In this document: one piece after another, positions 41,481 through 63,500 of the stretch
Position numbering within the stretch: position 1 is the first letter of the stretch
How the letters are laid out: each line of letters begins with the position of its first letter
NCBI RefSeq assembly: GCF_030063305.1
Contig: NZ_JASISV010000002.1
Location: forward strand, 1 to 64,000
DNA length: 64,000 nucleotides
Source of the DNA: Salinibacterium sp. G-O1
GTDB lineage: Bacteria; Actinomycetota; Actinomycetes; Actinomycetales; Microbacteriaceae
Direction: 5' to 3'
Translations under genes and position numbers: made by a program
The notes under the pieces: generated by a model
The model's database searches: none
What the model was told of the DNA's origin: nothing
What the model saw: only the letters and a program-made list of their open reading frames with translations

Positions 41481-42400
41481 GCCAGTGCCCGTGGGTTTGA
41501 TGCGGGCTGTGGCCGATCGCGTGACGTTGTCACGCTGGCCGGTATCGATCGCTGCGGAGGTGCACCCTGCACCGCCCGGTATGCAGACCGGACGGTTGTC
41601 GCAGTTTCGCGCTGGCTGAGACCGGCCTGTTCGGCGGCGGCGTTGAGCGCGTCGAGCGCCTCGCTGGTCGGCACCATGTGCTCGGCCATCTTGCACGCGG
41701 CCCAGAAGAGCCCATGGTTGCGTTCGCCTTCCTGGCGTCGCGCAACCCATTCGGCCAGCCGATGCACGTCAACGGACTGTTGCGTCGACTGCCCACTTCG
41801 ACGTGACTTATCACGTGGCGGTGGATCGAGATGGTCGCGGAGACGCTGCGAATCGAGTGCACGACCTGGTGCACCAGCCAACTGGAGGACCTCATATCGT
41901 TGCGTCGACCCCGCGAGGGTGCGCAGCGACGGCGGGACGATGACATAGCCCCCGTCACCGCGGAAGTCGATTCCAGTCCGTGCGGATTGCCAGGAGCGCT
42001 GCTCGCTGTTCCCGTCCGCCGGGAAGAAGAGGTGCAGCCCGCCGGATGGAGTCCTGACTGTGGCTTCCCAACCTTCAATCAGTCCGTCGCGCTTGGCGCC
42101 ATCGAGTGCGTCGTAACCGTTGACGGAGCCGTGCACGTCGACGTCGATCACGACAAGGCCAGTGGCGGCGCCGGTCGGCATCCCGATATTTGCTGACGGC
42201 ATTGCGGCCCACCAGCGATGAACCAACTCGGGATCGCTGCTGGCCGAATGAAACCCTCCAGCAACGGCGGGGCGCTTCCCGCCCGCGGCGCAGGGAAACA
42301 CGGGGACGCCGGAAGCTGCGAACGCGAGCGCGCTCTGACGGAGGGAGACCCAGCGACCAATGTGATCGAGCGTCGTCATGAATGCTTCCGGCGCATTCAT
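41477..42400 (-). CDS. Bifunctional primase-polymerase domain protein
   Basis: This 307-aa protein has the Prim-Pol (AEP) domain: LAFAASGVPVFPCAAGGKRP, the metal site VIDVDVHG, RTPSGGLHLFFPADG and IDFRGDGGYVIVPPS. The C-terminal part is a helical PriCT-like extension (RNHGLFWAACKMAEHMVPTS). It probably primes complementary-strand synthesis after transfer or replication of the excised element. It overlaps ardC by ATGA at its start and the DUF2637 gene at its stop. Confidence 0.9.
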   Translation of the reverse strand: MNAPEAFMTTLDHIGRWVSLRQSALAFAASGVPVFPCAAGGKRPAVAGGFHSASSDPELVHRWWAAMPSANIGMPTGAATGLVVIDVDVHGSVNGYDALDGAKRDGLIEGWEATVRTPSGGLHLFFPADGNSEQRSWQSARTGIDFRGDGGYVIVPPSLRTLAGSTQRYEVLQLAGAPGRALDSQRLRDHLDPPPRDKSRRSGQSTQQSVDVHRLAEWVARRQEGERNHGLFWAACKMAEHMVPTSEALDALNAAAEQAGLSQRETATTVRSAYRAVQGAPPQRSIPASVTTSRDRPQPASNPRALA

Positions 42401-43488
42401 CGCAGCCCTCGCGCATCGGCCAACGCCACCTGGTGTGACGCCGCGGTGGCCCTGGTTGAGGGTGAAACGCCCGTGCGTTCTACTACCTTGGAGCTGTGAC
42501 GAGTCGATTCCCGATCAAGCCCCGGAGGAGTGCCGTCACCGGTCAACTGCGTGTCGAGTTGATCGAGAATTTTCATCGCTGTCGCACGGACTCGCTCACC
42601 GGTCGCCCGAACAATCTTCGACGGCTCCTCGCCATCGACTTGAGCTGCCCACGTCGAGACATAGGGGATCGTGTAGACGGTGGTATCCATGCCGTGTGCC
42701 GCGCCCACCATGAGCGCTACTGACTCGGCCTCGACTTCACCAATGCCGCGGTGCTGACGGGCATCTCCCTGATCGGGCCCGTGCATGAGGACATGTGCGA
42801 GTTCGTGAGCTAGCGTCTTCACTTGAGCTGCCGGGTCCATGTTCTCGCGGACGCTGACTGTTTTCTCCGCATAGTCGGTCACGCCGTTCGCGCCATAGAT
42901 CAAGCCCGCGTGCGCCACGCCATGCACCTGGAATCCGGCTGCTTCGATCTGCTGCACGATTCCGTCCCGGAGCCCCGAAGGAGCCTCGCCCTGCAGCAGT
43001 TTCGGCGTCGGCGGTTCTGGGACCGGATCGCCCGAGGTCTGTGCGGCATCCCAGACGTAGGCGGGGCGGACGCCGACCATCTTCGACCGAACTTGCTCGC
43101 CGGGGCGAGGCTTCTCGTACCGGTTGAGTCGTCGCCACGATGTCGGGTCGGATGGCGATGACGAGGCGAAGCGGCCGGTAACTGGAGCGAGAATCTGATA
43201 GCCGGGCTGACCCTTCTCGACCTGGTGTCCGAGCTGCTGCCACTGTTTGTATCCGGCCACGTACGAAGGCATCGGATCCGGCACCAGGCCTGCCTCATGC
43301 GCCGCGGTGTGCTGCATCCAGATCAGCAGTGTGTTGTTGAACGAGCGACTGCGGAACCGAGCCGCGAAGGCGATCGCCTTGGCCCAGTCTTCGCCAGATA
43401 CCAGCTGATCGACAGCCTCGGTCAGCTTCTCGTGCAACTCATCGAGCTTTGCCTCCCGCGCTTCGCGGCGATCGTCTGTCGATGCCAT
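42397..43488 (-). CDS. ArdC-like antirestriction protein
   Basis: This 363-aa protein has the N-terminal ssDNA-binding domain of ArdC/TraC1 (DWAKAIAFAARFRSRSFNNT, LLIWMQ) and a C-terminal zincin-type metallopeptidase domain with HELAHVLMHG (His228, Glu229, His232) followed by EVEAESVALMV. ArdC proteins protect incoming single-stranded DNA from restriction. AGGAGG seven bases before ATG 43488 fixes the start; the frame continues upstream without signals. It is the first gene of the leftward operon, reading away from the operator array. Confidence 0.9.
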   Translation of the reverse strand: MASTDDRREAREAKLDELHEKLTEAVDQLVSGEDWAKAIAFAARFRSRSFNNTLLIWMQHTAAHEAGLVPDPMPSYVAGYKQWQQLGHQVEKGQPGYQILAPVTGRFASSSPSDPTSWRRLNRYEKPRPGEQVRSKMVGVRPAYVWDAAQTSGDPVPEPPTPKLLQGEAPSGLRDGIVQQIEAAGFQVHGVAHAGLIYGANGVTDYAEKTVSVRENMDPAAQVKTLAHELAHVLMHGPDQGDARQHRGIGEVEAESVALMVGAAHGMDTTVYTIPYVSTWAAQVDGEEPSKIVRATGERVRATAMKILDQLDTQLTGDGTPPGLDRESTRHSSKVVERTGVSPSTRATAASHQVALADARGLR

Positions 43489-43878
43489 TGACCCGCCTCC
43501 TGTTCGATGCGCCATGACGCAGAAGCGTGTGGCGATACACCTGTGAGGTGAGCGAGGATGCCCAAGTCGCGGTGACGCGGAGCGGCATACTCGCCGGGAT
43601 GTCATGAGCGTGCTGTGACTACGCGCGACTGAGTGAACGAGCATCATCGCCTCGAATCTGGGCATGGTCCGCCTCCCTTTGAGCAGCGGTACCATCACGC
43701 CGAATCATTAAGGTTGAGCATGCTCAAATGGTCTGGGTCTTCCGTTCTAACATGACAATTGAGCATGCGCAACCCTTGATTTGTGCATGCTCAACGGCTA
43801 TATTGAGCATGCGCAACACCTCGCCGGGGTGGCCGTCGCCGATACCTACCCGTCCCGAACGGAAGGGGGTCAGCACAA
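43489..43878. promoter_or_regulatory. Divergent control region with four 14-bp palindromes
   Basis: The 390-bp gap between the leftward ardC operon and the rightward regulator gene contains TTGAGCATGCTCAA at 43714-43727 (perfect palindrome), TTGAGCATGCGCAA at 43759-43772, TTGTGCATGCTCAA at 43781-43794 and TTGAGCATGCGCAA at 43803-43816. Centres are 45, 22 and 22 bp apart, so the last three lie on one face of the helix. They are most likely operators of the HTH protein at 43,879. The rest of the gap (43489-43700) shows nothing clear. Confidence 0.85.
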
Positions 43879-44310
43879 ATGACCGAGAACGAGAGCAAAG
43901 CCGCCGCTGCGGATCTCGCGAAACGCCTGCGGCTGCTGCTTGACGTTGCGATCACCGAGTCCGGTGTTGAACCCACGTATTCGCAGATCGCCGCCTACCT
44001 AAGCGAACGCGGCACCAACCTGTCGAGATCGCGGTGGACCTACATGGTGAATGGCCATAGGTATGTGCAAGACCCCGAGGTGTTCGAAGGGTTGGCAGCG
44101 TTCTTCGACGTCGACGCTGACTTCCTTGTCGGTTCTGATGGGGCCGAGGTTCCGCCGCGAGTGAGCGCACAGCTCGATCTTGTGCGCTCAATGCGGGCGG
44201 CGAAGGTTAAGTCCTACGCGGCCCGCACCCTGGGAGATATTTCACCGAAAGCTCTCCAAGCCATCAGCAGGTTCCTAGATGAAGAAATGGCACACACAAT
44301 CGAGCAGTGA
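43879..44310 (+). CDS. HTH regulator, probable master switch of the element
   Basis: This 143-aa protein has an XRE-like DNA-binding fold in residues 10-85 (LAKRLRLLLDVAITESG, TYSQIAAYLSERGTNLSRSR, WTYMVNGHRYVQDPEVFEGL) of the EspR-like layout, where the HTH is extended. The C-terminal 50 residues are helical and probably dimerise. It is encoded immediately beside the four-palindrome array and upstream of an ImmA-like peptidase, the order of ImmR-ImmA switches in ICEBs1-like elements. By analogy it represses the transfer operon until cleaved. Whether it binds those sites is inferred. Confidence 0.8.
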   Translation: MTENESKAAAADLAKRLRLLLDVAITESGVEPTYSQIAAYLSERGTNLSRSRWTYMVNGHRYVQDPEVFEGLAAFFDVDADFLVGSDGAEVPPRVSAQLDLVRSMRAAKVKSYAARTLGDISPKALQAISRFLDEEMAHTIEQ

Positions 44311-44368
44311 CGGTGCCCCCGGTGCGGAACAACGCCGGTAGATGCTCTCGAAGGAGGGTGAGCAGAGC

Positions 44369-44833
44369 ATGAATATCGAACTGACTGTGTCTACGGCTGT
44401 CGCTGATCTTGCTCTGGGCGGAGTCTTCACTTTCGACGCCTTGTTCGACGCTGTGCGGCAGCGCAGACAACGGAAGCTGCGGGTCGTTGAGCTTGCTGAA
44501 CTTGGCGACCACGATGGCATCTGCGCCGTCTGGCTGACTACTGATACTGAGGATCTGATCCTCCACGCCCACAGTGATTCGGTTCTGCACCGACAGCAGT
44601 TCGTTCTGCATGAGTTTGCTCACATGATTCTTGGGCACTGCGACGGTGACGAGTGCTCCGAGGTGGATGCCCTGCTGCCCGACATCCCACCGCACACTCG
44701 CGGACGTTTGCTCAGGCGCCAGGACCTCGACACAGGCACTGAGATCGCTGCAGAGTCGTTGGCTGACCGGCTCGCGGCAGGGATCCGCGGTTCGGCCTTC
44801 GCGGAGTCTCGCTACTCGGAGATATTCGCATGA
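44369..44833 (+). CDS. ImmA/IrrE-type metallopeptidase
   Basis: This 154-aa protein has a zincin motif HEFAHMILGH (His81, Glu82, His85) with a following helix containing AAESLADRLAAGI, the third-ligand region. ImmA/IrrE peptidases cleave XRE repressors after a signal. The HTH gene 58 bp upstream is the obvious substrate candidate. ATG 44369 is preceded by AAGGAGG (11-nt spacing); ATG 44342 would include that site in the coding region. It overlaps the membrane-protein gene by ATGA. Confidence 0.85.
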   Translation: MNIELTVSTAVADLALGGVFTFDALFDAVRQRRQRKLRVVELAELGDHDGICAVWLTTDTEDLILHAHSDSVLHRQQFVLHEFAHMILGHCDGDECSEVDALLPDIPPHTRGRLLRRQDLDTGTEIAAESLADRLAAGIRGSAFAESRYSEIFA

Positions 44834-45846
44834 TTCAGACGCTCGTCGCTGCGCTCATGTGGGTGCTTGTGTCGAGCCTGCTCATCCTGCGGCGCGGGCG
44901 CACAGACCGCAGCATCACGTATTCTGCGCTCACCATTGCTATCGCGATGACACTCAACGTCGATGCGATCTACGTCGTCGTCGATCGAGTTCTTGGCGCA
45001 ACCAATCTGGCCACGCTGCTCTCAGATGTCCTCTTGATGATTGGCCTCTTTTTCCTTGGCCGGGCAGCAATGAAAGCGGGGGAGTATCGCCCTCGTTTGG
45101 TGCGCGCGGCCGTTGGTCGCTCCGCACTGTTCATCGCACTCCTTGGCGCCTCAGTGGCCTTCACTCTCATCGATCGAGGGCCAACGACGGTCAATTTCAT
45201 GATTGATCTCGGCGCCCAACCGTGGGCCGCGACGTATTCGATCGTCGCTTTCACGTACTGCGGGATCGTCGTTACCGCGATGCTCGCGCTGGCGACACGC
45301 CAGTTCCGGCTTGGCGATGGCATCCACCGCATTCCGCCAGCGCTGCTGTTCATTGGCTCCGTTTCGGGCGTCACACTCTGCGTGGTGGTGATCGTTATGG
45401 ATGTTGCTCACATCTCAGGCAACCTCGAACTCATGAACGCGGTCGGCGCAACGTATGGGCCGCTATCTCTACTCGCTTTTGTCTTTCTGTGCGCCGGCTT
45501 CGTAGGGCAACCAATGGTCCGATACGTGCGGGATCGCGCGCGACGCGCGCAGACAGCTGAGATGGTGCGAGAGCTGGAGCCGCTCTGGCGTCGAGCAACA
45601 CTCGTGCGGCCGGGACTCAGCGGCACGAACTCGCTCGGGTCGAGCCTGGATGACCCAGAGGTACGCCTTCACCGCGAGATCGTCGAGATCCGTGACGCCA
45701 TGATCGATCCACGCGTCTCCTTCGAAGTCACTGGACCCGATCGTGCATTGCTGGAGCGAGCCGAGGCTCACCTCTTGGGGGCTATTGCGCGCGACACACG
45801 TGAACCTCTGCCTGGTCGCGCTGCACGCGAACGAGGACAGGTATGA
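44830..45846 (+). CDS. Multi-pass membrane protein, MAB_1171c type
   Basis: This 338-aa protein has about seven membrane segments in residues 1-235 (IQTLVAALMWVLVSSLLILR, LLSDVLLMIGLFFLGRAAMK, ALLFIGSVSGVTLCVVVIVM, YGPLSLLAFVFLCAGFVGQP) and a cytoplasmic C-terminal domain (ELEPLWRRATLVRPGL, LHREIVEIRDAMIDPR). This is the layout of proteins annotated MAB_1171c family putative transporters, often beside XRE and ImmA genes in Actinobacteria. Transport has not been shown; a signal receptor is as likely from the 7-TM layout and charged tail. It overlaps the genes on both sides by 4 nt. Confidence 0.75.
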   Translation: MIQTLVAALMWVLVSSLLILRRGRTDRSITYSALTIAIAMTLNVDAIYVVVDRVLGATNLATLLSDVLLMIGLFFLGRAAMKAGEYRPRLVRAAVGRSALFIALLGASVAFTLIDRGPTTVNFMIDLGAQPWAATYSIVAFTYCGIVVTAMLALATRQFRLGDGIHRIPPALLFIGSVSGVTLCVVVIVMDVAHISGNLELMNAVGATYGPLSLLAFVFLCAGFVGQPMVRYVRDRARRAQTAEMVRELEPLWRRATLVRPGLSGTNSLGSSLDDPEVRLHREIVEIRDAMIDPRVSFEVTGPDRALLERAEAHLLGAIARDTREPLPGRAARERGQV

Positions 45847-47117: not shown

Positions 47118-47309
47118 GTGACTGAGCCATGGATGTCTGCCGATGACATTGCGACGCATCTTGGCGTCACTAAGGACACCGTCTACACCTGGATCGCCGA
47201 GAAGAACATGCCTGCGCACAAGATCGGGCGCCTGTGGAAGTTTCAGGCAAGCGAGGTTGATGACTGGGTGCGCCGAGGCGGGGCTGCTGCGGCGGAGGCG
47301 GGCGCATGA
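47118..47309 (+). CDS. Small HTH protein heading the defence cluster
   Basis: This 63-aa protein is a MerR/excisionase-type HTH: PWMSADDIATHLGVTKDTVY, TWIAEKNMPAHKIGRLWKFQ. GGAGGAGAG lies just before the GTG start. It is 55 bp upstream of the methyltransferase and on the same strand. Comparable small HTH proteins often open restriction and BREX-type clusters as controllers. A role in regulating the downstream operon is likely; a link to element excision is less so because xis already lies beside int. Confidence 0.8.
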   Translation: MTEPWMSADDIATHLGVTKDTVYTWIAEKNMPAHKIGRLWKFQASEVDDWVRRGGAAAAEAGA

Positions 47310-47364
47310 CTTCAGCCTTGTCGCTGGTCTCTGGTGAGATGAGCCTTATGAAAGTAGACATTCC

Positions 47365-50082
47365 ATGGTGAGGCTTAACCTCAAAGCTGTCGAGGATCGA
47401 GTTGCGCCACTCGGGGGCCGTGACACCTACGACCGCCAGTTCATCTTCGATCTACTCCTCGCTTATGGCAAGCCGCAGGGCAACGTCACGCGTCTCCGGA
47501 ACGGTACGCTGAGTGTCGCCGTAGATCCTGAGACCGAAGTTGCGCAGAAAAATGTCGTCTACTTCAAGGAGACAGTTGGCGACCCGCTCGCAGTGAACGA
47601 TGCGCTGAAGACTTCACCGGCGGTGGTGCGATTCAACACCCGATTTGTGATCGTCACCGATTACACAGAAGTTGTCGCCACGGACACGAAGACCGGCGAG
47701 ACCATCGGTTTTCCGATCCGGAATATCGACGAATATTTCACTTTCTTTCTGCCCTGGGCGGGTATGGAGAAGTCCCAGTACGCTGCCGAAGCGCACGCGG
47801 ATGTCAAGGCAGCGGAGCGGATGGGTAAGCTGTTCGACGAGCTGCTCGTGGCGAACCCGAGTCTCCTCGATGTCCCCAACGGGCGGCACTCACTCAACAT
47901 TTTCTTCACCCGGCTACTGTTCTGTTTCTTCGCCGAAGACACCGGAATCTTTGACGATAACCAGTTCACTAATGCGGTCGGGTCCCACACTCAGGCCGAC
48001 GGGTCGGACGTCGCTGACTTTCTCACTGCCTTGTTTACCGCGCTCGACACCGAACGTTCCGAGGACAAGCCCAAGCATCTGGCGGGATTCCCATACGTTA
48101 ACGGGCGACTGTTCACGGTGTCGACTGAGCATGTAGTGCCGCGATTCACGAAGAAAGCTCGCGAACTGTTGATCGAGTCGGGCACGCTGATCTGGCGGGA
48201 GATTAACCCCGACATCTTTGGGTCAATGTTCCAAGCGATCGTCACCCCCGGCAAGCGCAGCGACCTCGGCCAGCACTACACCTCAGTACCGAACATCCTC
48301 AAGACCATCGAGCCTCTCTTCCTTGACGAACTCAAAGCGCAGTTCGATGCAGGGTTCGAGTCAGCCAAGAGGCTCGAAGCGCTGCTGGGGCGGATCAGCG
48401 CGATCAAGGTCTTCGATCCGGCCTGTGGATCGGGCAACTTCCTAGTCATTGCATACAAGGAATTGCGCCGCGTGGAGCACGCGATTCTGGAGCGTCTCGC
48501 TGACCTCGACCAGAGACATCAAGTGCTCTACGCAGAGTCGAAAGTCAATATTGAGAACTTCTTTGGCATCGAGATTGACGACTTCGCGGTCGAGGTCGCA
48601 ATCCTCTCCCTGTGGATCGCGAAGCATCAGATGAACAGTGAGTTCAAAGACAAGTTCGGTGTCTCCATCCCGCTGATCCCCCTGAAGGAGACCGGTCAAA
48701 TCCAGCAGGGAAACGCCACCCGCGTCGACTGGAATGCCGTGTGTCCGAATGACGGCGGCGAGGTTTATTTGATAGGAAACCCTCCGTACAAGGGAGGCAA
48801 ATCGCAGAGCAAGGAGATGAAGGCAGATTACCCGTTCGTCTTCGGGAATCGACCGCATTCAAAGGATCTCGATTACATCGCGTTATGGTTCGTCAAGGGA
48901 GCCGACTACATCGAAGGGACTCGTGCTGAACTTGCGTTCGTAACGACCAACTCTGTGTCGCAGGGAGAGCATGTCGGGCTCATGTTCCCGATGATCTTTG
49001 CGAAGAGAATCGAGATCGGTTACGCGTACACCTCCTTCAAATGGGAGAATAATGCTAAGCGGAATGCGGGCGTCGCGGTAATTGTCGTGAACCTTCGTAC
49101 AGAACGGTCGGGCCTTAAATACATCTTTACTGATGGCCTGCAAGTCAAAGCCGAGAACATCAACGGCTATCTTGCCGACGCACCTTCAGTTTTCGTATAT
49201 CGAAGGACCAAGCCAATCAGCGTCGGCCTACCGCGCATGGTGCTTGGCTCTATGGCTAAAGATGGCGGGAATCTGATTCTTGATGCCGAGGAACGATACA
49301 AAGCAGTCGCTGATAACCCTGATGCTGATCGATATCTAAAGAGATACGTCGGCTCGGAAGAGTTCATCAATGACACTGCGCGTTACTGCGTGTGGGTCAC
49401 AGATAGCGAAGTTGCGGCCGTCCGGAGGATCGAACCGATTTCGAGGCGGCTTACTGCGGTTGCTACTTGGCGAGAAGGACGTGACGAAGCTGGCGTCAAG
49501 GCCTTCGCAGCGCACCCAAATCGCTTTAAGCAAGTGGCGTATAAACCGACGGAGTCGATCGTCGTTCCCCGCGTGTCGTCTGAACGACGCAACTACGTGC
49601 CGATGGGTTACCTCGACAAGAACACTGTGATCTCGGACGCCGCAAACGCAGTCTACAATGCGAAACCTTGGCTATTTGCACTATTAACTTCCCAGATGCA
49701 CAACGCGTGGTTGCGGGCTGTTGCTGGAAGACTTGAGACTCGGATTCGCTATGGGGCCTACATCGTGTACAACAATTTCCCGGTCCCGCAGCTCTCTGAT
49801 GCAGTGAAGGAACAACTCACTGTGGTGGCGCTGCGAGTGCTGGATGTGCGTGAGTACCACTGCGAGAAGACGCTCGCAGAGCTGTACGATCCGGACGTCA
49901 TGCCTGCCGATCTGCGTGCTGCGCATGTGGCCGTTGATGAACTGGTGGATTCGGTCTATTCCAAGCGTGGTTACGAGACCGATGAGCAGCGTCTCTCTGA
50001 TCTGTTCGCGATGTACGAACGCATGACTGCCGAGGAAGCTGCGAAGGCCCCGGCGAAGAAGAGCAGGAGCATCAGCAAGTGA
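47365..50082 (+). CDS. MmeI-like DNA adenine methyltransferase
   Basis: This 905-aa protein follows the MmeI order. The N-terminal domain includes RFVIVTDYTEVVATDTKTGE. The helical spacer has NIFFTRLLFCFFAEDTGIF. The SAM motif FDPACGSGNFLV starts at residue 350, NPPY starts at 472 (N6-adenine type), and FKWENNAKRNAGVAVIVVNL marks the end of the methylase core. The target-recognition and C-terminal parts follow. In MmeI the N-terminus is a nuclease; here I see no clear PD-ExK (VVYFKETVG where an ExK would be expected), so this copy may only methylate. It overlaps the helicase gene by 4 nt. Confidence 0.87.
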   Translation: MVRLNLKAVEDRVAPLGGRDTYDRQFIFDLLLAYGKPQGNVTRLRNGTLSVAVDPETEVAQKNVVYFKETVGDPLAVNDALKTSPAVVRFNTRFVIVTDYTEVVATDTKTGETIGFPIRNIDEYFTFFLPWAGMEKSQYAAEAHADVKAAERMGKLFDELLVANPSLLDVPNGRHSLNIFFTRLLFCFFAEDTGIFDDNQFTNAVGSHTQADGSDVADFLTALFTALDTERSEDKPKHLAGFPYVNGRLFTVSTEHVVPRFTKKARELLIESGTLIWREINPDIFGSMFQAIVTPGKRSDLGQHYTSVPNILKTIEPLFLDELKAQFDAGFESAKRLEALLGRISAIKVFDPACGSGNFLVIAYKELRRVEHAILERLADLDQRHQVLYAESKVNIENFFGIEIDDFAVEVAILSLWIAKHQMNSEFKDKFGVSIPLIPLKETGQIQQGNATRVDWNAVCPNDGGEVYLIGNPPYKGGKSQSKEMKADYPFVFGNRPHSKDLDYIALWFVKGADYIEGTRAELAFVTTNSVSQGEHVGLMFPMIFAKRIEIGYAYTSFKWENNAKRNAGVAVIVVNLRTERSGLKYIFTDGLQVKAENINGYLADAPSVFVYRRTKPISVGLPRMVLGSMAKDGGNLILDAEERYKAVADNPDADRYLKRYVGSEEFINDTARYCVWVTDSEVAAVRRIEPISRRLTAVATWREGRDEAGVKAFAAHPNRFKQVAYKPTESIVVPRVSSERRNYVPMGYLDKNTVISDAANAVYNAKPWLFALLTSQMHNAWLRAVAGRLETRIRYGAYIVYNNFPVPQLSDAVKEQLTVVALRVLDVREYHCEKTLAELYDPDVMPADLRAAHVAVDELVDSVYSKRGYETDEQRLSDLFAMYERMTAEEAAKAPAKKSRSISK

Positions 50083-52064
50083 ACGCAATCAAGAAGCCGG
50101 TCAACATCGTTGAAGTGACCTATGCACGCACGAAGGCGTCAGTCAACACGGACAATATGGGCATGCGTGAGATGCAGCAGCGTGTCTTCGCCAAGCGCGA
50201 CGCCCAGCACCTCCTTGTGAAGGCCCCACCCGCGTCGGGTAAGTCACGAGCGCTGATGTTTGTCGCTCTCGACAAGCTTTACAACCAGGGCCGCAAAAAA
50301 GTAGTCGTCGCTGTCCCAGAACGCTCGATCGGGGCCTCATTCTCCTCAACGAGCCTCACCAAGTTTGGATTCTTTGCCGACTGGGAAGTCAAAGCGAAGC
50401 ACAATCTCTGCGACCCTGGCTCTTCACAGGGCAAGGTTGGCGCGTTCATCGATTTCCTGAACGACCCCACTGCGGCCACCCTGGTGTGTACGCACGCCAC
50501 GTTGCGGTTCGCGTTTGAAAAACTCGACCCGGCTGCCTTCGCCGGTACGGTGCTTGCGATCGACGAGTTTCATCACGTCTCCGCCGATACCGAGACCAAT
50601 CGTCTTGGTGCCCTGCTTCGTGAGGTGATGCACGGCTCCGACGTCCACATCGTCGCGATGACCGGCTCGTACTTCCGCGGTGACTCGGTGCCGGTGCTCT
50701 CGGCCGAGGACGAGGCACGCTTCACGCCGGTCACGTTCAACTATTACGACCAGCTCAACGGGTACGAGTACCTGAACTCGCTTGGCATTGGTCACCACTT
50801 TTACCAGGGCCGCTACACCGATGCGATCGGCGAGGTGTTCGACCTGAACAAGAAGACGATCGTGCATATCCCGAACGTGAACTCGGGTGAGTCGACGAAA
50901 GACAAGATCGAAGAGGTCGGGTTCATCATTGACTCGATAGGTCACGTTGAGTCCACCCATCCAGACACAGGCATCATCAGCATCCGTCGGAACGACAACG
51001 GAGAGATCCTTCGACTCGCGGATCTCGTGGATGACACGGATCAGAAGAAGCGCGCTGACACGCTGCACTACCTCTCCACGGTCGCATCCAAGGACCGTGA
51101 TGCGGTGGACGTGATCCTCGCGCTCGGTATGGCGAAGGAAGGGTTTGACTGGCCGTTCGCTGAGCACGCGCTCACGGTTGGGTACCGGGCGTCGCTCACT
51201 GAGGTGATCCAGATAATCGGTCGTGTAACCCGCGACAGCGAAGGTAAAGAGCATGCGCAGTTCACGAACCTGATCGCCGAACCCGATGCCTCGCAGGGCG
51301 AGGTGAAAGTCTCGGTGAACAACATGCTCAAAGCAATCACGGCGTCCTTGCTAATGGAGCAGGTGCTCGCACAGAACTTCACGTTCAAGATGAAGCGCAT
51401 CGGTGACGATGACGCGCAAGCGCCGGGGGTCATTACGATCAAGGGCTTCAAGGAACCCTCCACCGAGCGGGTCAAACAAATCATTGAGACTGACCTCAAC
51501 GATCTAAAGGCAACGATCCTGCAAGACGACACGTTCGCGAAAGCCGCAGCGGGGTCGGTTGATCCGGAGACGACGAACAAGGTATTGATCCCGAAGATCA
51601 TCCGTGAGCGGTATCCGGAGCTGGATGAGTCGCAGGTCGAGGAGCTCCGTCAGCAGGTTGTCGTGGACTCGGTGATCAAGAACGGTGAGGTTCGCGAAGT
51701 AGGTGACAAACGGTTCATCAAGATGGCCGAGAAGTTTGTCAACATCGACGACATTAATATTAACCTCATCGATTCGGTCAACCCATTCCAGCGCGCCTTC
51801 GAGGTCCTGTCGAAGTCGGTGACTCCATCCGTGCTGCGAATTATTCAGGACTCCATCACCGCGACCCGAGTTGAGGTCACTGAAGATGAGGCCAAGGTTG
51901 CGTGGCCGAAAATGCAGCAGTGGGCGAAACTCAACGGTCGCCCGAACGTTCGTTCTGAGGATCCGACGGAGAAGCGGTACGCAGAAATCGTGCTCTTCCT
52001 TCAGCGGAAGAAGCAGGAACGCGACGCCGCAGCACGGGCCACCCAGATGGTGGACGAAGCATGA
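50079..52064 (+). CDS. SF2 DEAD/DEAH helicase of the defence cluster
   Basis: This 661-aa protein has Walker A APPASGKSRAL near residue 50, the DEFH-type motif II AIDEFHHVSADT, motif III AMTGSYFRGD, and motif VI VIQIIGRVTRDSEGKEHAQF. It resembles the R-subunit helicases of type I and III systems, without an obvious nuclease domain. The C-terminal part (WAKLNGRPNVRSEDPTEKRY) has the same basic helical pattern seen in the next protein near RRSQGRVPDSQTRTIAERKL. It overlaps both neighbours by 4 nt, so it is surely produced with them. It probably translocates on DNA at unmodified sites. Confidence 0.88.
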   Translation: MNAIKKPVNIVEVTYARTKASVNTDNMGMREMQQRVFAKRDAQHLLVKAPPASGKSRALMFVALDKLYNQGRKKVVVAVPERSIGASFSSTSLTKFGFFADWEVKAKHNLCDPGSSQGKVGAFIDFLNDPTAATLVCTHATLRFAFEKLDPAAFAGTVLAIDEFHHVSADTETNRLGALLREVMHGSDVHIVAMTGSYFRGDSVPVLSAEDEARFTPVTFNYYDQLNGYEYLNSLGIGHHFYQGRYTDAIGEVFDLNKKTIVHIPNVNSGESTKDKIEEVGFIIDSIGHVESTHPDTGIISIRRNDNGEILRLADLVDDTDQKKRADTLHYLSTVASKDRDAVDVILALGMAKEGFDWPFAEHALTVGYRASLTEVIQIIGRVTRDSEGKEHAQFTNLIAEPDASQGEVKVSVNNMLKAITASLLMEQVLAQNFTFKMKRIGDDDAQAPGVITIKGFKEPSTERVKQIIETDLNDLKATILQDDTFAKAAAGSVDPETTNKVLIPKIIRERYPELDESQVEELRQQVVVDSVIKNGEVREVGDKRFIKMAEKFVNIDDININLIDSVNPFQRAFEVLSKSVTPSVLRIIQDSITATRVEVTEDEAKVAWPKMQQWAKLNGRPNVRSEDPTEKRYAEIVLFLQRKKQERDAAARATQMVDEA

Positions 52065-53278
52065 GCGACGCAGAACCGACGGGCTTCGGCCCGGTCGACT
52101 TCGTTTTTCCGACAAACATTGACGCGATCCTCGATTCCGACGTCGATGGTCTTCTCGATGCGCCTGAGAAGGCGAAGAAAGTCACCTCAGCGGACCGGCT
52201 GGAGCGTGCGTTCTTGGAGATCGTCGAGTTCCGACGCTCGCAGGGTCGTGTCCCCGATTCGCAGACACGCACGATTGCCGAACGCAAGCTTGGTGCCCGT
52301 CTCGACGGGATCCTCGCAAATGACGTGAAGATTGCGGCGCTAAACCCACTGGATATTGAGTTCGGACTTCTTGAGGTTCCTGAGCCCCCCGCGACACTCG
52401 ACGATCTTCTCGAAGCCGACGACCTTGACTTACTCGGTGATGAGTCTGGTCTGCTCGATGTCTCGGATCTGCCGACTCGTAAACCTCCGAGTGAAATCGA
52501 CTCGGTGGCGAAGCGCAAGAAGGCTCAAGACTTCGACAAGTTTGAGCATCTCTTCAAAGCGAAGCACGCGGAACTTACAGACGGCGCGGCACAGATGGCG
52601 CCGTTCAAGGGCCTCCGAACGGTGACTGAGGGGCGGTTCTTCGTTCTCAATGGAATCATGCTTTTCGTTGCCGAGGTCGGCGAAACTCGCGAGATGGTTG
52701 TCGGTGGCAAGACTGAGCAGAAGCAGCGTCTGCGTGTGATCTTCGAGAACGGCACCGAGTCGGCCATGTATCGTCAATCGCTGTCGATCCGCCTCTTCGA
52801 GCAAGACGGTCAGGCAATCGTTCAAACTGGTTTGAACGACGACGAAGTGCTCGACGGCGGTGACCTCGCGAGTGGCTACATCTATGTCCTCCGGTCGCGC
52901 AGTGAAGACCCGCAGATCTCCGAAATGGAGCACCTGCATAAGATTGGATTCTCCCGTGGCCCCGTCGAGAATCGGATCAAGAACGCGGATAAATCACCGA
53001 CGTACTTGATGGCACCGGTGGAGGTCGTCGCGAGCTACCAGACGTTCAATCTCAACGTTGTGAAGTTCGAGAACCTACTGCATCGCGTCTTCGCTGCGGT
53101 TCGGCTCAACCTCACGCAGATCGACCGAAAAGGTCGCGACTACGATCCGTCGGAGTGGTTCGTTGCGCCACGTACCGTCATCGACCAGGTCGTCGAACTG
53201 ATCGTTTCCGGAGAGATCGTGAACTACGACTACGACGCCCAAACCCAGCGGCTTCGTAGCCGGGCAGAGGAAAAGTGA
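52061..53278 (+). CDS. GIY-YIG (T5orf172-type) nuclease
   Basis: This 405-aa protein has a C-terminal GIY-YIG domain of the T5orf172 type: GYIYVLRSRSEDPQI near residue 272, LHKIGFSRGPVENRIKNA with the basic residues, and FENLLHRVFAAVRLNL carrying the likely catalytic Glu. Residues 40-90 form a helical module resembling the helicase C-terminus. The acidic linker (DDLLEADDLDLLGDE) separates the two. It is likely the cutting subunit for the helicase and methyltransferase. The gene starts inside the helicase stop codon. Confidence 0.87.
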   Translation: MSDAEPTGFGPVDFVFPTNIDAILDSDVDGLLDAPEKAKKVTSADRLERAFLEIVEFRRSQGRVPDSQTRTIAERKLGARLDGILANDVKIAALNPLDIEFGLLEVPEPPATLDDLLEADDLDLLGDESGLLDVSDLPTRKPPSEIDSVAKRKKAQDFDKFEHLFKAKHAELTDGAAQMAPFKGLRTVTEGRFFVLNGIMLFVAEVGETREMVVGGKTEQKQRLRVIFENGTESAMYRQSLSIRLFEQDGQAIVQTGLNDDEVLDGGDLASGYIYVLRSRSEDPQISEMEHLHKIGFSRGPVENRIKNADKSPTYLMAPVEVVASYQTFNLNVVKFENLLHRVFAAVRLNLTQIDRKGRDYDPSEWFVAPRTVIDQVVELIVSGEIVNYDYDAQTQRLRSRAEEK

Positions 53279-53279
53279 C

Positions 53280-54371
53280 ATGGCAGTAGAGATGGGCCTT
53301 TGGCGAGCTGACGGCGACAAGCTGAGCCGCATCGTGCCGACCGCGCTCGGCTTGGAATCGCAGCTCGAAACCTACATCGAGTCCGACCCGACCATGCTCG
53401 GTGAAACACTGCTCATCATCGGCAGGCAGGTTTCCACCGCCCACGGAGGCTTCATCGACCTGCTCGCTCTCGACGAGACCGCTGCCGTGCATGTCATTGA
53501 ACTGAAGCGCGACAAGACCCCACGCGACGTCACCGCACAGGCGCTCGACTACGGATCGTGGGTCTCGACTCTCAGCCGGACTGACATTCACACGATTTTC
53601 GAGGCGTATCGACCCGGAGTCGCACTAGAAGAAGCATTTGCCGAACGGTTCAATGAAACATTGCCCGAAGAGGTCAATTCATCTCAAGTCTTCACGATTG
53701 TCGCGGCAAGCGTCGATGCCGCAACCGAACGAATCGTTCGTTTCCTCAATGAAGACTTCGGCGTACCGATCAACGTGGTGTTCTTCCGCCACTTCACCGA
53801 CAACGGGGCCTCTTACTTGGCCCGCACCTGGCTCGTCGAACACGATGGGCAGACCACGGCACAGGCGGCTTCCTTGTCGCGGAAGACGAAAACCCGCGAA
53901 CCGTGGAACGGCTCCGACTGGTATGTCTCCTTCGGAGAACGAACTGGTGGGCGTCAGTGGTCAGACGGCAGGAAGTATGGCTTCGTGTCTGGCGGTGGCG
54001 GCAAATGGTTCTCGCAGACACTCAAAAACCTCACACCGGGTGCCCGCGTCTTCGCATGTATCCCGAAGGTGGGTTACGTGGGCGTGGGCACAGTGACGGG
54101 TGAGGCGCGACGCTTTGATGAGGCGGTAGTGAGCATGGATGGCGTTGGGATACCGCTGAAGGATCTGCCGCTCGAAGGTGACTACCGGCATGAGGATGGC
54201 GGTGATGACCTCATGGCCGAATGGGTTGTTCCTATTGTTTGGACCCATACAGTGCCGAGCGAGCAAGGGTTCTGGAAGGCCGGAATGTTCGCGAATCAGA
54301 ATACAGCGGCCAAGTTGCGTCAGCAGTTCACAATCGAGCAAGTCTCGGCGGCGTTCGGACTCGATAGTTGA
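53280..54371 (+). CDS. NucS/DUF91-like nuclease with C-terminal PUA/EVE-like region
   Basis: This 363-aa protein has an N-terminal PD-(D/E)XK nuclease of the NucS/DUF91 kind: IGRQVSTAHGGFIDLLALDE with Asp60, and HVIELKRDKTPRDVTAQALD with Glu74 and Lys76. The C-terminal region (WYVSFGERTGGRQWSDGRKY, GFVSGGGGKWFSQTLKNL, IPKVGYVGVGTVTGEARR) looks like a PUA/EVE-superfamily beta barrel, a fold that reads modified bases. This suggests a modification-dependent nuclease. It starts two bases after the GIY-YIG gene and is the last gene of the cluster. Confidence 0.8.
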   Translation: MAVEMGLWRADGDKLSRIVPTALGLESQLETYIESDPTMLGETLLIIGRQVSTAHGGFIDLLALDETAAVHVIELKRDKTPRDVTAQALDYGSWVSTLSRTDIHTIFEAYRPGVALEEAFAERFNETLPEEVNSSQVFTIVAASVDAATERIVRFLNEDFGVPINVVFFRHFTDNGASYLARTWLVEHDGQTTAQAASLSRKTKTREPWNGSDWYVSFGERTGGRQWSDGRKYGFVSGGGGKWFSQTLKNLTPGARVFACIPKVGYVGVGTVTGEARRFDEAVVSMDGVGIPLKDLPLEGDYRHEDGGDDLMAEWVVPIVWTHTVPSEQGFWKAGMFANQNTAAKLRQQFTIEQVSAAFGLDS

Positions 54372-58245: not shown

Positions 58246-58992
58246 ATGGCTCAGGAGGACAACAGCGACGATTGGCGTAACGAGTTCCAGTTCACGGAGC
58301 TCGCGGCGCTCCGTGAGCGAATTCCGGCAGCGATCCAGCTGAGTCAAGACCGTTCGGCACGTGCCCACGCGGCGTACGAGGATCCCGATGGGGACCAAGA
58401 CGTTTATGGTGCGGGCATGGCACGCGGAGTGCAGAAGGAGCTTCGTGCCCTTCTGTCGGATTTGCCCTCCTATCGCGAGGCGAAGGTGTCAAGCACCCGC
58501 CGGATGCTGACGTTTATGGGCGACACGCTCATCTTCACGCAGCGCGTCGGCAAGCAGATGCCGCGTAACTTTCGTCGCTTTCGACTCAGCTACCTCACCG
58601 AATCGCGACGTGAGCTACTCGCGACTACGAGCAACGTCAAGTACTCAGACCCTGGACTCTTCGACATCAACGACGTACTTGACGGGGATCAGCCTGCGTC
58701 GCTTGAGGAGGCTCTCAATCACGTAGAACTGGCAGTGCCCCGCACGACACTCTTTGTCCCGTACTACAGCAGCACTCCTGACGGTGTGGGCACGATCTAC
58801 TTCGCACCCGCGAGATTGAACGGTCGGTACCTGGAGTTCACTGACCCCGAACGGCTCACCTATGAACGCACGCCTTCTACGGTCGATTCGTCGCGAAGTG
58901 CGGAAAGGCCAGTTGCTGGCTTCAACAACGGTGAGCGCCCGCGCACCTCGGTAAAACTGCGTAAGCAGCAGTCCGAGCAGGAAGGTACCTGA
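58246..58992 (+). CDS. Hypothetical protein preceding the XRE-ImmA gene
   Basis: This 248-aa soluble protein is unrecognised. It contains ELAALRERIPAAIQLSQDRS, QKELRALLSDLPSYREAKVS, a central VGKQMPRNFRRFRLSYLTES and VPYYSSTPDGVGTIYFAPAR. AAGGAGG six bases before the ATG is a strong ribosome site. It is two bases from the next gene, so the two are coupled. Proteins paired in this way with XRE-ImmA fusions are often toxins, cofactors or substrates; no such activity can be read here. The 161-bp gap upstream contains GTAAAGTTATGTGTTAC, perhaps part of its promoter. Confidence 0.7.
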   Translation: MAQEDNSDDWRNEFQFTELAALRERIPAAIQLSQDRSARAHAAYEDPDGDQDVYGAGMARGVQKELRALLSDLPSYREAKVSSTRRMLTFMGDTLIFTQRVGKQMPRNFRRFRLSYLTESRRELLATTSNVKYSDPGLFDINDVLDGDQPASLEEALNHVELAVPRTTLFVPYYSSTPDGVGTIYFAPARLNGRYLEFTDPERLTYERTPSTVDSSRSAERPVAGFNNGERPRTSVKLRKQQSEQEGT

Positions 58993-58994
58993 TC

Positions 58995-60152
58995 GTGCAA
59001 GCCGTACCACGCGGAAATGTTGATCTCGCAGGGGTCGCTAGGCTATTTGATCCGGCCCGGCTGTCACAAGCTCGTCGGATCAGCAAGATGTCGAAGACCG
59101 ACCTTCATCGTAAAGTCGGCGTCTCAGCTGCCGCCATCGGGCAGTATGAGCGCGGAGAGGTGCGTCCTCGTGCGGAGACGGTTGCTGCGCTTGCGGCAGC
59201 TCTGGGAGTCCCACCGGGTTTCTTTGCGCTCGGACGTCCGCGGGTCCAGGTTGACATCGCTGAGGCGTCGTTTCGTCGGCTCCGTTCGACGTCGGTCACG
59301 CAACAGCAGCAAGCCACCGCGTACGTTGAGCAAGCCTGGGAACTCAGTTGTTACCTCGAAGAGAGGGTCGAGTTTCCTGAGCTTGATCTCCCTACGTGGG
59401 CTCACGCTGACTCGCTGGACGTGCCTGACCCTGTGACCGCGGCACGGGCCATGCGCCAACACTGGAGGCTCGGCACGGAGCCCGTGCAGCACCTCGTGTA
59501 CCAGCTCGAACAGCATGGCATCCTGACCGTCTTCTTCTCCATGAAGGAGGACAGCGGACTGGACGAGAAGAGCCGCATTGATGCCTTCTCAACCATCGCT
59601 CTGCCACGTCCAATGATCGTGCTGACGCCAGACAAGGCCAATGATGTGATGCGGCACCGCTTTTCCGCAGCGCACGAGCTTGGGCACATCGCTCTCCACC
59701 GTGGACGGCAGGGGACGGACAGCCAGTTGGAACGGCAGGCGGATATGTTCGCGGCCGAGTTTCTCACCCCGCGCGATGTGATCCGCGATCAGCTGCCGCC
59801 GCGCATCAACTTCAACCGGTACGAAGAACTGAGCCAATGGTGGGGAGTTTCCATCAACTCGCTGATCTTCCGGTCGCGTGAGCTAGACCTCATCTCCGAG
59901 TCCACCGCTCGTCGTGCATACATCACATTGAACGGGATCACTCGGCGCCCGATGCCGGTTCACGACTATCCCGGGGAACGGCCGGAGATCTTGAAGTCTG
60001 CGCTCGACCTGCTCGACAAAGCAGGCGTTCCTTTGACTCAAGTCGCAGATGATCTCCAGATGACTCCACGCCATATACGACGTCTAGCGGACATCGATGA
60101 CCCTCAGCCCAAGCTGACGCTGGTCCAAGACCATCCAGACAACAGGAAATAG
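58995..60152 (+). CDS. XRE-ImmA/IrrE fusion protein
   Basis: This 385-aa protein has an N-terminal XRE HTH (RLSQARRISKMSKTDLHRKV, GVSAAAIGQYERGEVRPRAE) and an ImmA/IrrE zincin domain with HELGHIALHRG (His227, Glu228, His231) and ERQADMFAAEFLTPRDVIRD. The C-terminal region from about 330 has another HTH-like stretch (VPLTQVADDLQMTPRHIRRL). Such fusions regulate toxin and phage-defence loci, and can be self-cleaving. It follows the hypothetical gene by two bases and precedes the DUF2188 gene. This is the second ImmA peptidase of the element. Confidence 0.87.
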   Translation: MQAVPRGNVDLAGVARLFDPARLSQARRISKMSKTDLHRKVGVSAAAIGQYERGEVRPRAETVAALAAALGVPPGFFALGRPRVQVDIAEASFRRLRSTSVTQQQQATAYVEQAWELSCYLEERVEFPELDLPTWAHADSLDVPDPVTAARAMRQHWRLGTEPVQHLVYQLEQHGILTVFFSMKEDSGLDEKSRIDAFSTIALPRPMIVLTPDKANDVMRHRFSAAHELGHIALHRGRQGTDSQLERQADMFAAEFLTPRDVIRDQLPPRINFNRYEELSQWWGVSINSLIFRSRELDLISESTARRAYITLNGITRRPMPVHDYPGERPEILKSALDLLDKAGVPLTQVADDLQMTPRHIRRLADIDDPQPKLTLVQDHPDNRK

Positions 60153-60536: not shown

Positions 60537-63500
60537 GTGGGATATCGGACAGAGGATGTATGGGCTACGTCACACGTAGCTGGCAAAAATGTAATCCGGC
60601 AGCTACTTGTTCCTGCACACGACGACATCGAGGTGCTGGAGACAATCGAGAGCACCGAAGTCGTGCGCACTCCTTTCGGACAGTGGCCCCTTACTCGCGA
60701 CACGGATCTCCCTGCTGAGGGGCCGCTTACGGCGAGGCTGCCCGTCCGTCGCACCAAGGGCGCCAGAGTCAGCTGGACAGGTGGCCAAGAATTGATTCGG
60801 GCGAGCGAGGTGATCCAGTCCTTCGAGGGTGCCATTGGATTCACAGCGCACGATCGACCACACAGTCTGCGCCGCCCGCAAATCGCTGCCCTGCACTCGA
60901 TCGTCGGCTATCAGTCGTCCGGCCTGTCTGAGCCGGGCATAGTCGTGATGCCGACGGGGACTGGCAAGACAGAGACGATGTTGGCGTGGTTTGTAGCGCA
61001 ACGGCCCGAGCGCGTGCTCGTGGTTGTTCCATCGTCTGCTCTCCGTGATCAGATTGCCACCAAGTTCGAGACTCTTGGCATCCTGCAAAGCGAAGGCATC
61101 GTCGACTTCCGCGCGTTGCGTCCCAGAGTTGGACGGTTAGAAGGGCGCTTCGCCGATGAAGGGGAAGCGAGGGCCTTTGTCGAAGCGTCAAACGTGGTCA
61201 TCGCGACCCCAAACGCAATCCACGCCAATGAACCTGGGGTACGGGCGGCATTCTTCGAGGGGTTCACTCATCTGCTTGTTGACGAGGCACATCATGCTCC
61301 TGCGCGTACGTGGACTGAGATTATTCGCGTGTTCGCGGACCGGCCGACGCTCCTATTTACGGCGACGCCATTCCGTCGTGATGGGATCACCTTGCCAGGC
61401 CGTGTCATTTTCCGGTTCCCTCTACGTGAAGCACAGAAGGAGGGATATTTCAGCACCATCGACTTTACTGCGGTGCTCGATCTTGACAATGACGATGAGG
61501 CTCTGGCGGTGGCAGCGGTCGGTCGACTTAGGGAGGACCTGGATGCCGGTCACGAACACCTGCTACTCGCACGCGTAAGAACCAAAGCGAGGGCTGATGA
61601 AATCCACGCGCTCTACTCACGCCTCGCTCCAGACTTCGCGCCGAAGGCTATTTACGACTCTATGTCGTCACGGCGCAGAGCAGAGGCTCTCAAAGCTATG
61701 CGAGACCGAACCAGCCGTGTGATCGTTTGCGTCGACATGCTTGGCGAAGGATTCGACCTACCAACCCTGAAGGTAGGGGCCTTCCATGATGCCCACCGAT
61801 CATTGAGCCCTATGGTGCAGCTCATCGGTCGCCTCGCCAGAACATCCTCTCCGCTGCCGATCGGTCGAGCGAGTGTCTTCGTGCGCCAGGACCCTCGCCA
61901 CGCGCTCTCACCGATGCGGTTTCTTCTCCGCGAGGACCCAGATTGGGACAAGGTACTCAGCGACATCACCGAGCGCGCGACGGAGCGCGCCAACGAAGTG
62001 AGCGAGTTCGAAGCCTCATTTGTGGACAACCCTCCGGACGTTCCCGTTGGCCTCCTGGAACCGAAGATGAGCGCCAAGGCGTTCGCGACATCAAAGGTTG
62101 ACTGGAACCCGCTCGCGGTGCGGGACATCTACGGGGACTCCGTACTGGACGACCTCATCAGCGTCAACGCTGACGACACCATTGCGTGGTTTGTAATCGA
62201 GACCATTGCCGACCTGCGCTGGGGCGACATACCGTCGCTTCGCGCGACTGACTACACCCTCGTAGCTTTGTACCTTGATCGTGCCCAAGGCCTCCTCTAC
62301 GTCCACTGTTCTGACACGAAGCACGGCCTCGATGACGTCGTGGAGGCTGTGCTTGGGCACGAACCGAGACCGCTCAGCGGGTACGAGACTTTCAAGGTCT
62401 TCTCGAATCTCAACCGACTTATTCCCACTAACATTGGGCTTCTCGACGCCCGTGATCGTGACAAGCGGTTCTCTATGCATGTCGGAAGTGACGTGGAGAC
62501 GGCGCTGACGGAGGCTGAGCGCACGCACAAGACCAACACGCACGTCGCAGCCAAAGCCTTCGAAGACGGTGAACGCGTGTCCATCGCTGCGTCACTCTCG
62601 GGTAGATTCTGGTCGATGCGCACCGCGCCTAACCTCGCCGAGTGGCGAACCTGGTGCCAGCAGCAAGGAACCAAGCTGCGTGACGGCAGCGTCGACGTTC
62701 ACTCGCTTTTCCGATCCATGATCATCCCTGTTGACGTGAAGGAGCGACCAGCCCTCCCGATCCTCGGGATGGAGTGGCCTTGGGACCTCTACCTGGGAAA
62801 TGGCACATCCTCCAGACTCAGCTACAAGGATTCAAGCGTTCTAATCACCGATGCTGAGTTCAGGATTGATGACTATCGCACCAGTGGCCCGCTCCACTTC
62901 TCCATCCAGACCCCAGCCTGGGAACTGAGCTATGAGGGACAGTTCGGCCCTAATGGTCTGCACTATCGGGCGCTAGGCGATGAGGCAGAGGTCGTCGGAT
63001 GGCGGGACGCGAAGACGCCCTTCTCCTCCTGGCTCAACAACCACAAGCCAACGCTTTTCTTGTCTGGAGATCGCATGATAACCGGTGATGATCGGCTTCT
63101 GGCACCGCGGACCGAACTGCCTCCATACCCTCGCGAACAGTTTCGAGCGCTTGACTGGGTGGGCAATGGCGTCGATATCACGGTGGAATCGCAAGGAGTC
63201 GAGCGCAAGACGAACTCAATCCAGGCCTACATGGCCCGATACCTTTCGGAGAACCAGACCTTCGACGCCCTCATCGATGACGACCGTTCAGGTGAAGCAG
63301 CTGATCTCGTGGGCATCCGTGTCTACAAGGGCGATCTTCACGTCACACTGGTGCATTGCAAGTACTCTTCCGCGACTACTGCGGGCGCACGCCTCGCTGA
63401 CTTGTATGAGGTCTGCGGCCAGGCGATGCGAGGAGCGCGGTGGCGTGATAACGGCGCTCTGCCGTTGCTTGAGCATCTCGATCGCCGGGCACAGGCCTAT

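Follow-up and report, generated by a model that had tools for sequence, protein, structure and literature searches.

The five-gene cluster at positions 47118-54371 of a DNA stretch from Salinibacterium sp. G-O1 raises the question of how an MmeI-like methyltransferase with no evident nuclease of its own might take part in restriction, and which of the adjoining genes belong with it. The stretch analyzed, referred to here as the window, is 64,000 nt long and corresponds to bases 1-64000 of contig 2 in a genome of 3.14 Mb and 6 contigs. The genes of the cluster are as follows.

47118..47309, + strand: helix-turn-helix (HTH) protein, 63 aa, excisionase/MAD1-like (HTH_17, 53.1 bits)
47365..50082, + strand: MmeI-like (DnmA-type) adenine methyltransferase, 905 aa, with a target-recognition domain (five MmeI Pfam domains)
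50079..52064, + strand: YeeB-like superfamily 2 (SF2) helicase/translocase, 661 aa (DEAD, 33 bits)
52061..53278, + strand: YeeC-like protein, 405 aa, with a C-terminal GIY-YIG/T5orf172 nuclease (T5orf172, 53.7 bits; MUG113, 53.6 bits)
53280..54371, + strand: PDC-S11-type nuclease, 363 aa, NucS/RecB-like PD-(D/E)XK with a putative C-terminal EVE-like domain (PADLOC PDC-S11, 497 bits)

The locus is interpreted here as a DnmA-YeeB-YeeC restriction-modification system borne on a mobile element and accompanied by a type IV-like nuclease, an interpretation that we hold to be somewhat more probable than its negation. The initial annotation of the window had described these five open reading frames (ORFs) between 47118 and 54371, and the ORF list agrees. 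Its domain assignments were borne out by the Pfam search, which returned HTH_17, the five MmeI domains, DEAD, T5orf172/MUG113, and, below threshold, NucS_C. Of the junctions it described, the 4-nt overlaps at methyltransferase/helicase and helicase/GIY-YIG were confirmed, while the gap between the GIY-YIG and NucS-like genes is 1 nt rather than 2 bp.

The methyltransferase and its conserved partners

The 905-aa methyltransferase contains all five Pfam domains of MmeI (MmeI_N, MmeI_hel, MmeI_Mtase, MmeI_TRD, and MmeI_C) and matched the MmeI structure 5hr4 with an E value of 5.5e-180; the MmeI_TRD family was also matched in B. subtilis as a control. An N-terminal ExK had been noted as missing from this protein, and indeed the window reads V-Y-F-K-E where MmeI-like enzymes show x-E-x-K. 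The aligned ExK was found in 0 of 91 helicase-linked methyltransferases (that of the window counted in) and D..ExK was kept in 12 of 14 full-length MmeI-like methyltransferases without a helicase, a comparison that is not one unbiased draw, as the 91 were found via the helicase (the window's apart) and the 14 by searching 396 phylum genomes with the methyltransferase. That search gave a match in 80 genomes, the best after the window's own being 37% identical. The two helicase-free proteins without ExK were those of L132 and L136, where the L136 frame starts at the locus edge. Among the 91, a Glu at the aligned column with no Lys two positions on was present in two (L044 and L171), and seven had an E-x-K that fell outside the aligned columns but only a few residues away. 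Frames of <800 residues or <200 bits were dropped from this alignment, as were L001 and L206, which are repeats of the window. Judged from these alignments, the nuclease motif is lost across the whole helicase-linked methyltransferase clade. PADLOC nevertheless scored the protein at 948 bits as type IIG versus 115 bits as DrmMI, and family libraries and some records list the DnmA-type methylase among type IIG or IIL restriction enzymes.

The 661-aa helicase matched ResIII and Helicase_C below the Pfam cut-offs. Its motifs GMRxMQ, PPASGKS, DEFHH, MTGSYFRGD, MAKEGFDW, and QIIGRxTRD were at least 95% conserved over 130 homologues, an alignment from which L001, L206, L082, and L098 were left out. 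Neither Pfam nor PADLOC detected a nuclease domain in the helicase, whose last 240 residues matched nothing in those searches. For the YeeC-like protein, residues G272, Y275, K294, G296, R305, and E337 of the GIY-YIG domain were invariant in 39 of 39 aligned sequences, these being taken from 127 homologues that include the window and two repeats of it (alignment A4). L214, L217, and L218 were left out of another alignment, A3. A Foldseek search with the model of this protein gave nothing under an E value of 0.001. The best match was a weak one to EF-P/eIF5A-like barrels (E = 4.1e-3), assigned by eye to the middle beta-rich part of the model (residues ~190-255, 52628-52825). About three acidic D-x-x-G/D-L-L repeats were seen by eye in residues 1-150 (52061-52510), a part that includes low-confidence model stretches, and these repeats could possibly be docking peptides.

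A conserved gene order was proposed in the initial annotation as something to search for, and the order methyltransferase-helicase-GIY-YIG was found to recur widely in GTDB, viral, and same-family loci. The GTDB loci were the best 80 of at least 586 helicase relatives obtained from a pattern scan (590 stretches listed, 586 confirmed). In all 80, the GIY-YIG gene lies 3' of the helicase gene on the same strand with an ORF gap of at most 275 nt. The methyltransferase gene was present in 70 (adjacent in 41, with inserted genes in 28, and downstream in 1), and in the 10 loci without it the helicase ORF starts within 2.4 kb of the locus start. Among 41 loci from the viral collection, the GIY-YIG gene was present in 39 and the methyltransferase gene in 32. 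Within the window's own family, the helicase was matched in 16 of 299 genomes and near full length in 10 (that of the window counted), and the other 9 loci all contained both partner genes. The order is therefore above chance. L079 (4266-7013) has its MmeI-like methyltransferase downstream of the GIY-YIG gene, the sole such order among the 70 GTDB loci with a methyltransferase.

Comparison of four genes of the cluster with seven relatives (five for the methyltransferase) gave ratios of nonsynonymous to synonymous differences (pN/pS) of ~0.15-0.47, with synonymous sites near saturation. The sequence argues for the actinobacterial copies being functional, since the helicase and GIY-YIG motifs are conserved and pN/pS is low.

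Relation to known systems and predicted mechanism

The cluster had been put forward as a five-gene unit of type I/III-like organization. The core matches DnmA-YeeB-YeeC of B. subtilis and, by report, of Vibrio crassostreae. Likened by its published description, this system also has, in the same order, an MmeI-like methyltransferase without a restriction endonuclease motif, an SF2 helicase, and a C-terminal T5orf172/GIY-YIG protein, whereas the window has two genes more, the HTH gene and a NucS/EVE-like gene in fourth place after the core. According to PMC9973331, the B. subtilis methyltransferase is 57% similar to MmeI, the SF2 helicase and the T5orf172 protein are encoded by the first and second downstream genes, and YeeB and YeeC are reported without C-terminal stretches. 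PMC7261158, citing Morgan et al. 2009, describes MmeI homologues without the nuclease motif adjoining yeeB/yeeC-like genes and reports an existing suggestion that DnmA-YeeB-YeeC is a Type I-like restriction-modification system. The proposal that cutting has moved from the MmeI chain to separate subunits thus fits the missing ExK and the intact helicase and GIY-YIG motifs but is not a new idea. The unity of the five genes did not hold up, as the HTH gene recurs once and the NucS-like gene was found in 8 of 20 actinobacterial GTDB loci. The core is of a known kind, and the EVE-NucS companion is the new element.

That neither DISARM nor BREX could be matched still stands, since the PADLOC matches listed for the five genes include neither core set. 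Of the DISARM models, these matches contain only DrmMI, on the methyltransferase, and not DrmA, DrmB, or DrmC. For BREX there was no PglZ or BrxC/PglY among the five genes, the matches listed being weak PglX on the methyltransferase. MADS was also rejected, the HTH protein scoring 76.3 bits with NF047737 MAD1 (cut-off, 80) and the MAD2 match scoring 22.8 bits (cut-off, 720). The likeness to type IIL MmeI extends to all five domains, a comparable recognition code, and probably N6-methyladenine (m6A) on one strand, but MmeI cuts with its own PD-ExK domain, while no nuclease motif is aligned in the same chain of the window methyltransferase. The window also differs from type I systems in having its target-recognition domain inside the methyltransferase chain, with no HsdS among the matches listed for the five proteins. 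In type III systems, the nuclease lies within the chain of the Res motor. With type ISP and type III, the window would be expected to share an asymmetric site, a one-strand mark, and an SF2 motor acting between opposed sites. Type ISP enzymes, as described in PMC3874165, combine an Mrr-like nuclease, translocase, methyltransferase, and target-recognition domain in one chain, in contrast to the three chains and GIY-YIG nuclease of the window.

Recognition appears to be the variable part of the system. Across 17 actinobacterial methyltransferases, mean identity to the window was 50% in the target-recognition domain versus 78% in the N-terminal domain, 82% in the spacer, 74% in the methyltransferase domain, and 80% in the C-terminal domain. 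The residue pair at MmeI positions 806/808 was ER in 35, KD in 33, and RD in 14 of the 91 methyltransferases, and the pair at 751/773 was RD in 17, KD in 2, and E-N, the MmeI pair, in none (L001 and L206 were again dropped). As the helicase and nuclease motifs are fixed while the target-recognition domain varies, we infer that the YeeB- and YeeC-like effectors are indifferent to sequence and take their target from the methyltransferase. In MmeI numbering, the window residues are L642, M645, R751, D773, A774, R810, E806, and R808. In the MmeI code of Callahan et al. 2016 (PMC4833311), position 6 is C:G when the pair is ER and G:C when it is KD, G:C at position 3 is specified by D773 together with R or K at 751, R at position 4 is specified by R810 with A774, and the K645M mutant favors A:T at position 2. 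From this code the site of the window methyltransferase is predicted to be N-A-G-R-m6A-C, with position 2 the least sure.

By homology to characterized enzymes, the methylase would read this short asymmetric site and modify its final A, in one strand only. Where the site is unmethylated, the bound, non-cutting methylase would recruit the YeeB-like motor, which would translocate, and YeeC would cut via its GIY-YIG domain. When only one strand is marked, replication yields one daughter molecule in which all sites lack the modification, and it is argued in PMC3874165 that MmeI-like enzymes must therefore use pairs of opposed sites. In the same way, self-protection of the window's host after replication should depend on a need for two head-to-head unmodified sites, as in type III and type ISP. 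Since a translocating helicase is a natural sensor of opposed site pairs, the core may be a split ISP-like system consisting of a methyltransferase-borne reader/writer, an SF2 motor, and a GIY-YIG cutter. The fifth protein would act independently, using its EVE-like domain to read a modified base and its nuclease to attack modified phage DNA escaping the first arm, comparable to BrxU beside BREX.

The fifth gene

The 363-aa protein matched NucS_C at 21.8 bits, below the Pfam cut-off of 24. Its residues D60, E74-L-K76, and Q87-x3-Y91 were invariant in 23 of 23 homologues and correspond to a RecB/NucS-like site, and a profile made from the protein found NucS 2vld with an E value of 2e-7. An AlphaFold2 model was built from 17 sequences (mean predicted local distance difference test score, 83; predicted template modeling score, 0.52), and its best Foldseek match to NucS/EndoMS had an E value of 3.7e-5. 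The same search returned 2hd9 (8.9e-4), 2p5d (1.3e-3), and 2eve (4.6e-3), which we take to be EVE-domain proteins, and also SduA (5.5e-3). The EVE-like part was placed C-terminally because Pfam EVE was matched in one of 20 C-terminal pieces. Proteins in which EVE is fused to PD-(D/E)XK are predicted modification-dependent (type IV) nucleases (PMC7641849, in whose main text NucS and DUF91 have 0 occurrences), and the fifth protein has the PD-(D/E)XK active site together with the putative EVE-like domain. BrxU, located inside a BREX locus on one plasmid, is a tested pairing of methylation-marked defense with a type IV enzyme (PMC8565348). The pairing in the window is of the same sort but differs in that BrxU is GmrSD-type rather than NucS/EVE and that the window five include no BREX core genes. 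On account of its putative EVE-PD(D/E)XK makeup and the BrxU precedent, the fifth protein reads as a type IV-like companion nuclease rather than a core component, and it probably recognizes chemically modified virus DNA. No paper describing the DnmA-YeeB-YeeC core together with EVE-NucS was found among the open-licence papers searched.

As a core subunit the fifth gene was rejected on its occurrence in only 8 of the 20 actinobacterial GTDB loci. In 6 of these, each from a different genus, the distance between the GIY-YIG stop and the fifth-gene start is -11 to +3 nt (+1 in the window), so that the tight junction is not confined to the window. The start in L010 is uncertain, and the gene in L018 (11139-12250) is split over two frames and was left out of the fifth-gene alignments and distance comparison. 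The gene was not seen in the 9 same-family loci, where the visible sequence ends ~0.3 kb after the GIY-YIG gene (the corresponding locus of the window itself does show it), nor in the four plasmid loci with the core that were opened, from 264 plasmid records matching the helicase. A search of the 396 phylum genomes gave a match in 32, most of them weak, and in the viral collection a single-sequence scan gave 0 relatives and an alignment scan 12. Eight plasmid relatives were opened. The Kocuria relative (L158) lies beside a type I restriction-modification operon, the haloarchaeal one (L160) near PglZ and BrxL, and the Deinococcus one (L161) between an SNF2 gene and methyltransferase/S genes. 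In L159 an N-6 methylase is encoded 1.9 kb away.

Genomic setting and rival explanations

A TrwC-type relaxase gene begins ~165 nt downstream of the cluster, and the following gene lies ~3.7 kb upstream of the restriction operon.

42397-43698, - strand: ArdC-like anti-restriction gene with an M78 domain

These two genes suggest that the DNA of the locus is a mobile element, perhaps a plasmid. The 63-aa HTH protein is probably a local regulator. A homologue upstream of the methyltransferase was found besides the window only in L015 among the GTDB and same-family loci, and the gene was rejected as a core gene on this single recurrence. Genes inserted between methyltransferase and helicase or after the GIY-YIG gene were surveyed in 73 loci plus the window (all three genes present, helicase on the + strand, viral loci excluded), their families being read from one scanned representative per group and from both AAA_13 proteins. 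The Schlafen AlbA_2/RecG-C group accounted for 11 ORFs in 10 loci and the RhuM group for 5 ORFs, with Fic, BRO-N, KAP NTPase, and AAA_13 proteins also present and many inserted genes being singletons without an assigned family. The RhuM representative matched PADLOC PDC-S05, and the AAA_13 protein of L019 scored 680 bits with PDC-S06 and had a weak PrrC match (47 bits). Restriction-modification operons hosting PrrC/RloC-like, RhuM-like, and Fic/Doc genes have been described as multi-pronged defense (PMC3710099), and a restriction-modification role of the core is supported by cargo of these kinds (RhuM, Fic, and PrrC-like). A NAD-dependent DNA ligase gene lies 3' of the GIY-YIG gene in L075 (11092-13161), with a homologue in L081 (11068-13014).

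Elsewhere in the window, positions 58246-60149, downstream of the relaxase gene, encode a 248-aa ORF followed within a few nt by a protein with HTH and M78 peptidase domains (PADLOC RmrA, 295 bits), possibly a second defense unit. A 1062-aa ResIII/DEAD helicase at 60537-63725 has weak likeness to the PADLOC models of PbeA and type IV restriction helicases. At 43879-45846 there are, in tight order, a 143-aa ORF with no Pfam family, a second protein containing HEFAH, and a DUF6545 protein; on visual inspection the first resembles an HTH protein and the second ImmA/IrrE.

Several data weigh against a restriction system with a type IV-like companion. In B. subtilis, deletion of dnmA left plasmid transformation unchanged (PMC7261158), while PMC9973331 reports that single deletions left plaquing by three phages unchanged and that the DnmA motif is not depleted in phage genomes (observed/expected ratio, 0.97), and its authors call the cluster a relic. 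The predicted site is affected by the fact that the R/K-D pair for position 3 is missing in 72 of the 91 methyltransferases and the E-N pair in all, so that the MmeI code fits the clade only partly. For the companion, EVE is weak by sequence (E = 0.0029 for the single Pfam match), a PDB sequence profile search with the C terminus gave no EVE and nothing sensible, and the Foldseek matches to 2hd9, 2p5d, and 2eve come without aligned ranges in the table and from a search with low template modeling scores (0.37-0.52 by target). In addition, the plasmid relatives in L157 and L162-L164 have no annotated methyltransferase within 7 kb, where the gene tables are incomplete. The published B. subtilis results would be explained if the cluster were a relic in which an active orphan methylase is kept for gene regulation or by linkage and the helicase and nuclease no longer restrict. 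This was considered unlikely for the window, however, as the helicase and GIY-YIG motifs are intact, all four genes look constrained, and the target-recognition domain diversifies while the effectors are kept across many phyla. Deletions in Vibrio crassostreae, as cited in PMC9973331, raised phage sensitivity.

The remaining explanations concern the fifth gene. It could be a nuclease that serves the mobile element against plasmids or in DNA damage and has its place behind the operon for expression only, which would suit the nearby relaxase and ArdC-like genes, but the tight junction to the GIY-YIG gene in six other genera makes this doubtful. The same junction favors a true fourth subunit, in which the GIY-YIG and PD-(D/E)XK nucleases act together, each perhaps cutting one strand, and methylation is sensed by the EVE-like domain. 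Such a role is also favored by the tracking of fifth-gene distances with helicase distances (r = 0.68) and GIY-YIG gene distances (r = 0.46; 28 pairs each), although not with those of the methyltransferase (r = -0.02; 15 pairs), and this tracking is a further point against an independent companion. A fourth subunit was deemed marginally more doubtful still, because the gene is absent from 12 of the 20 actinobacterial GTDB loci, was not seen in the same-family loci (within the ~0.3 kb visible) or the opened plasmid loci with the core, and has relatives that occur without DnmA-YeeB-YeeC. Least probable of all was considered a four-protein machine under the direction of an MmeI-type reader/writer, with one SF2 motor, both nucleases, and an EVE-like domain that checks how the same DNA is modified; if true, one operon would separate correctly marked DNA from both unmodified and foreign-modified DNA.

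Systems of the DnmA-YeeB-YeeC kind are common, yet family libraries and some records name their methylase type IIG or IIL despite the absence of an aligned nuclease motif in the 91 copies compared here, and the B. subtilis copy tested in PMC7261158 and PMC9973331 is reported as inactive. With its intact motifs, its predicted site, and a companion nuclease open to testing, the actinobacterial copy lets one ask whether split, probably translocating restriction works and also opens the question of how a one-strand mark protects self DNA.

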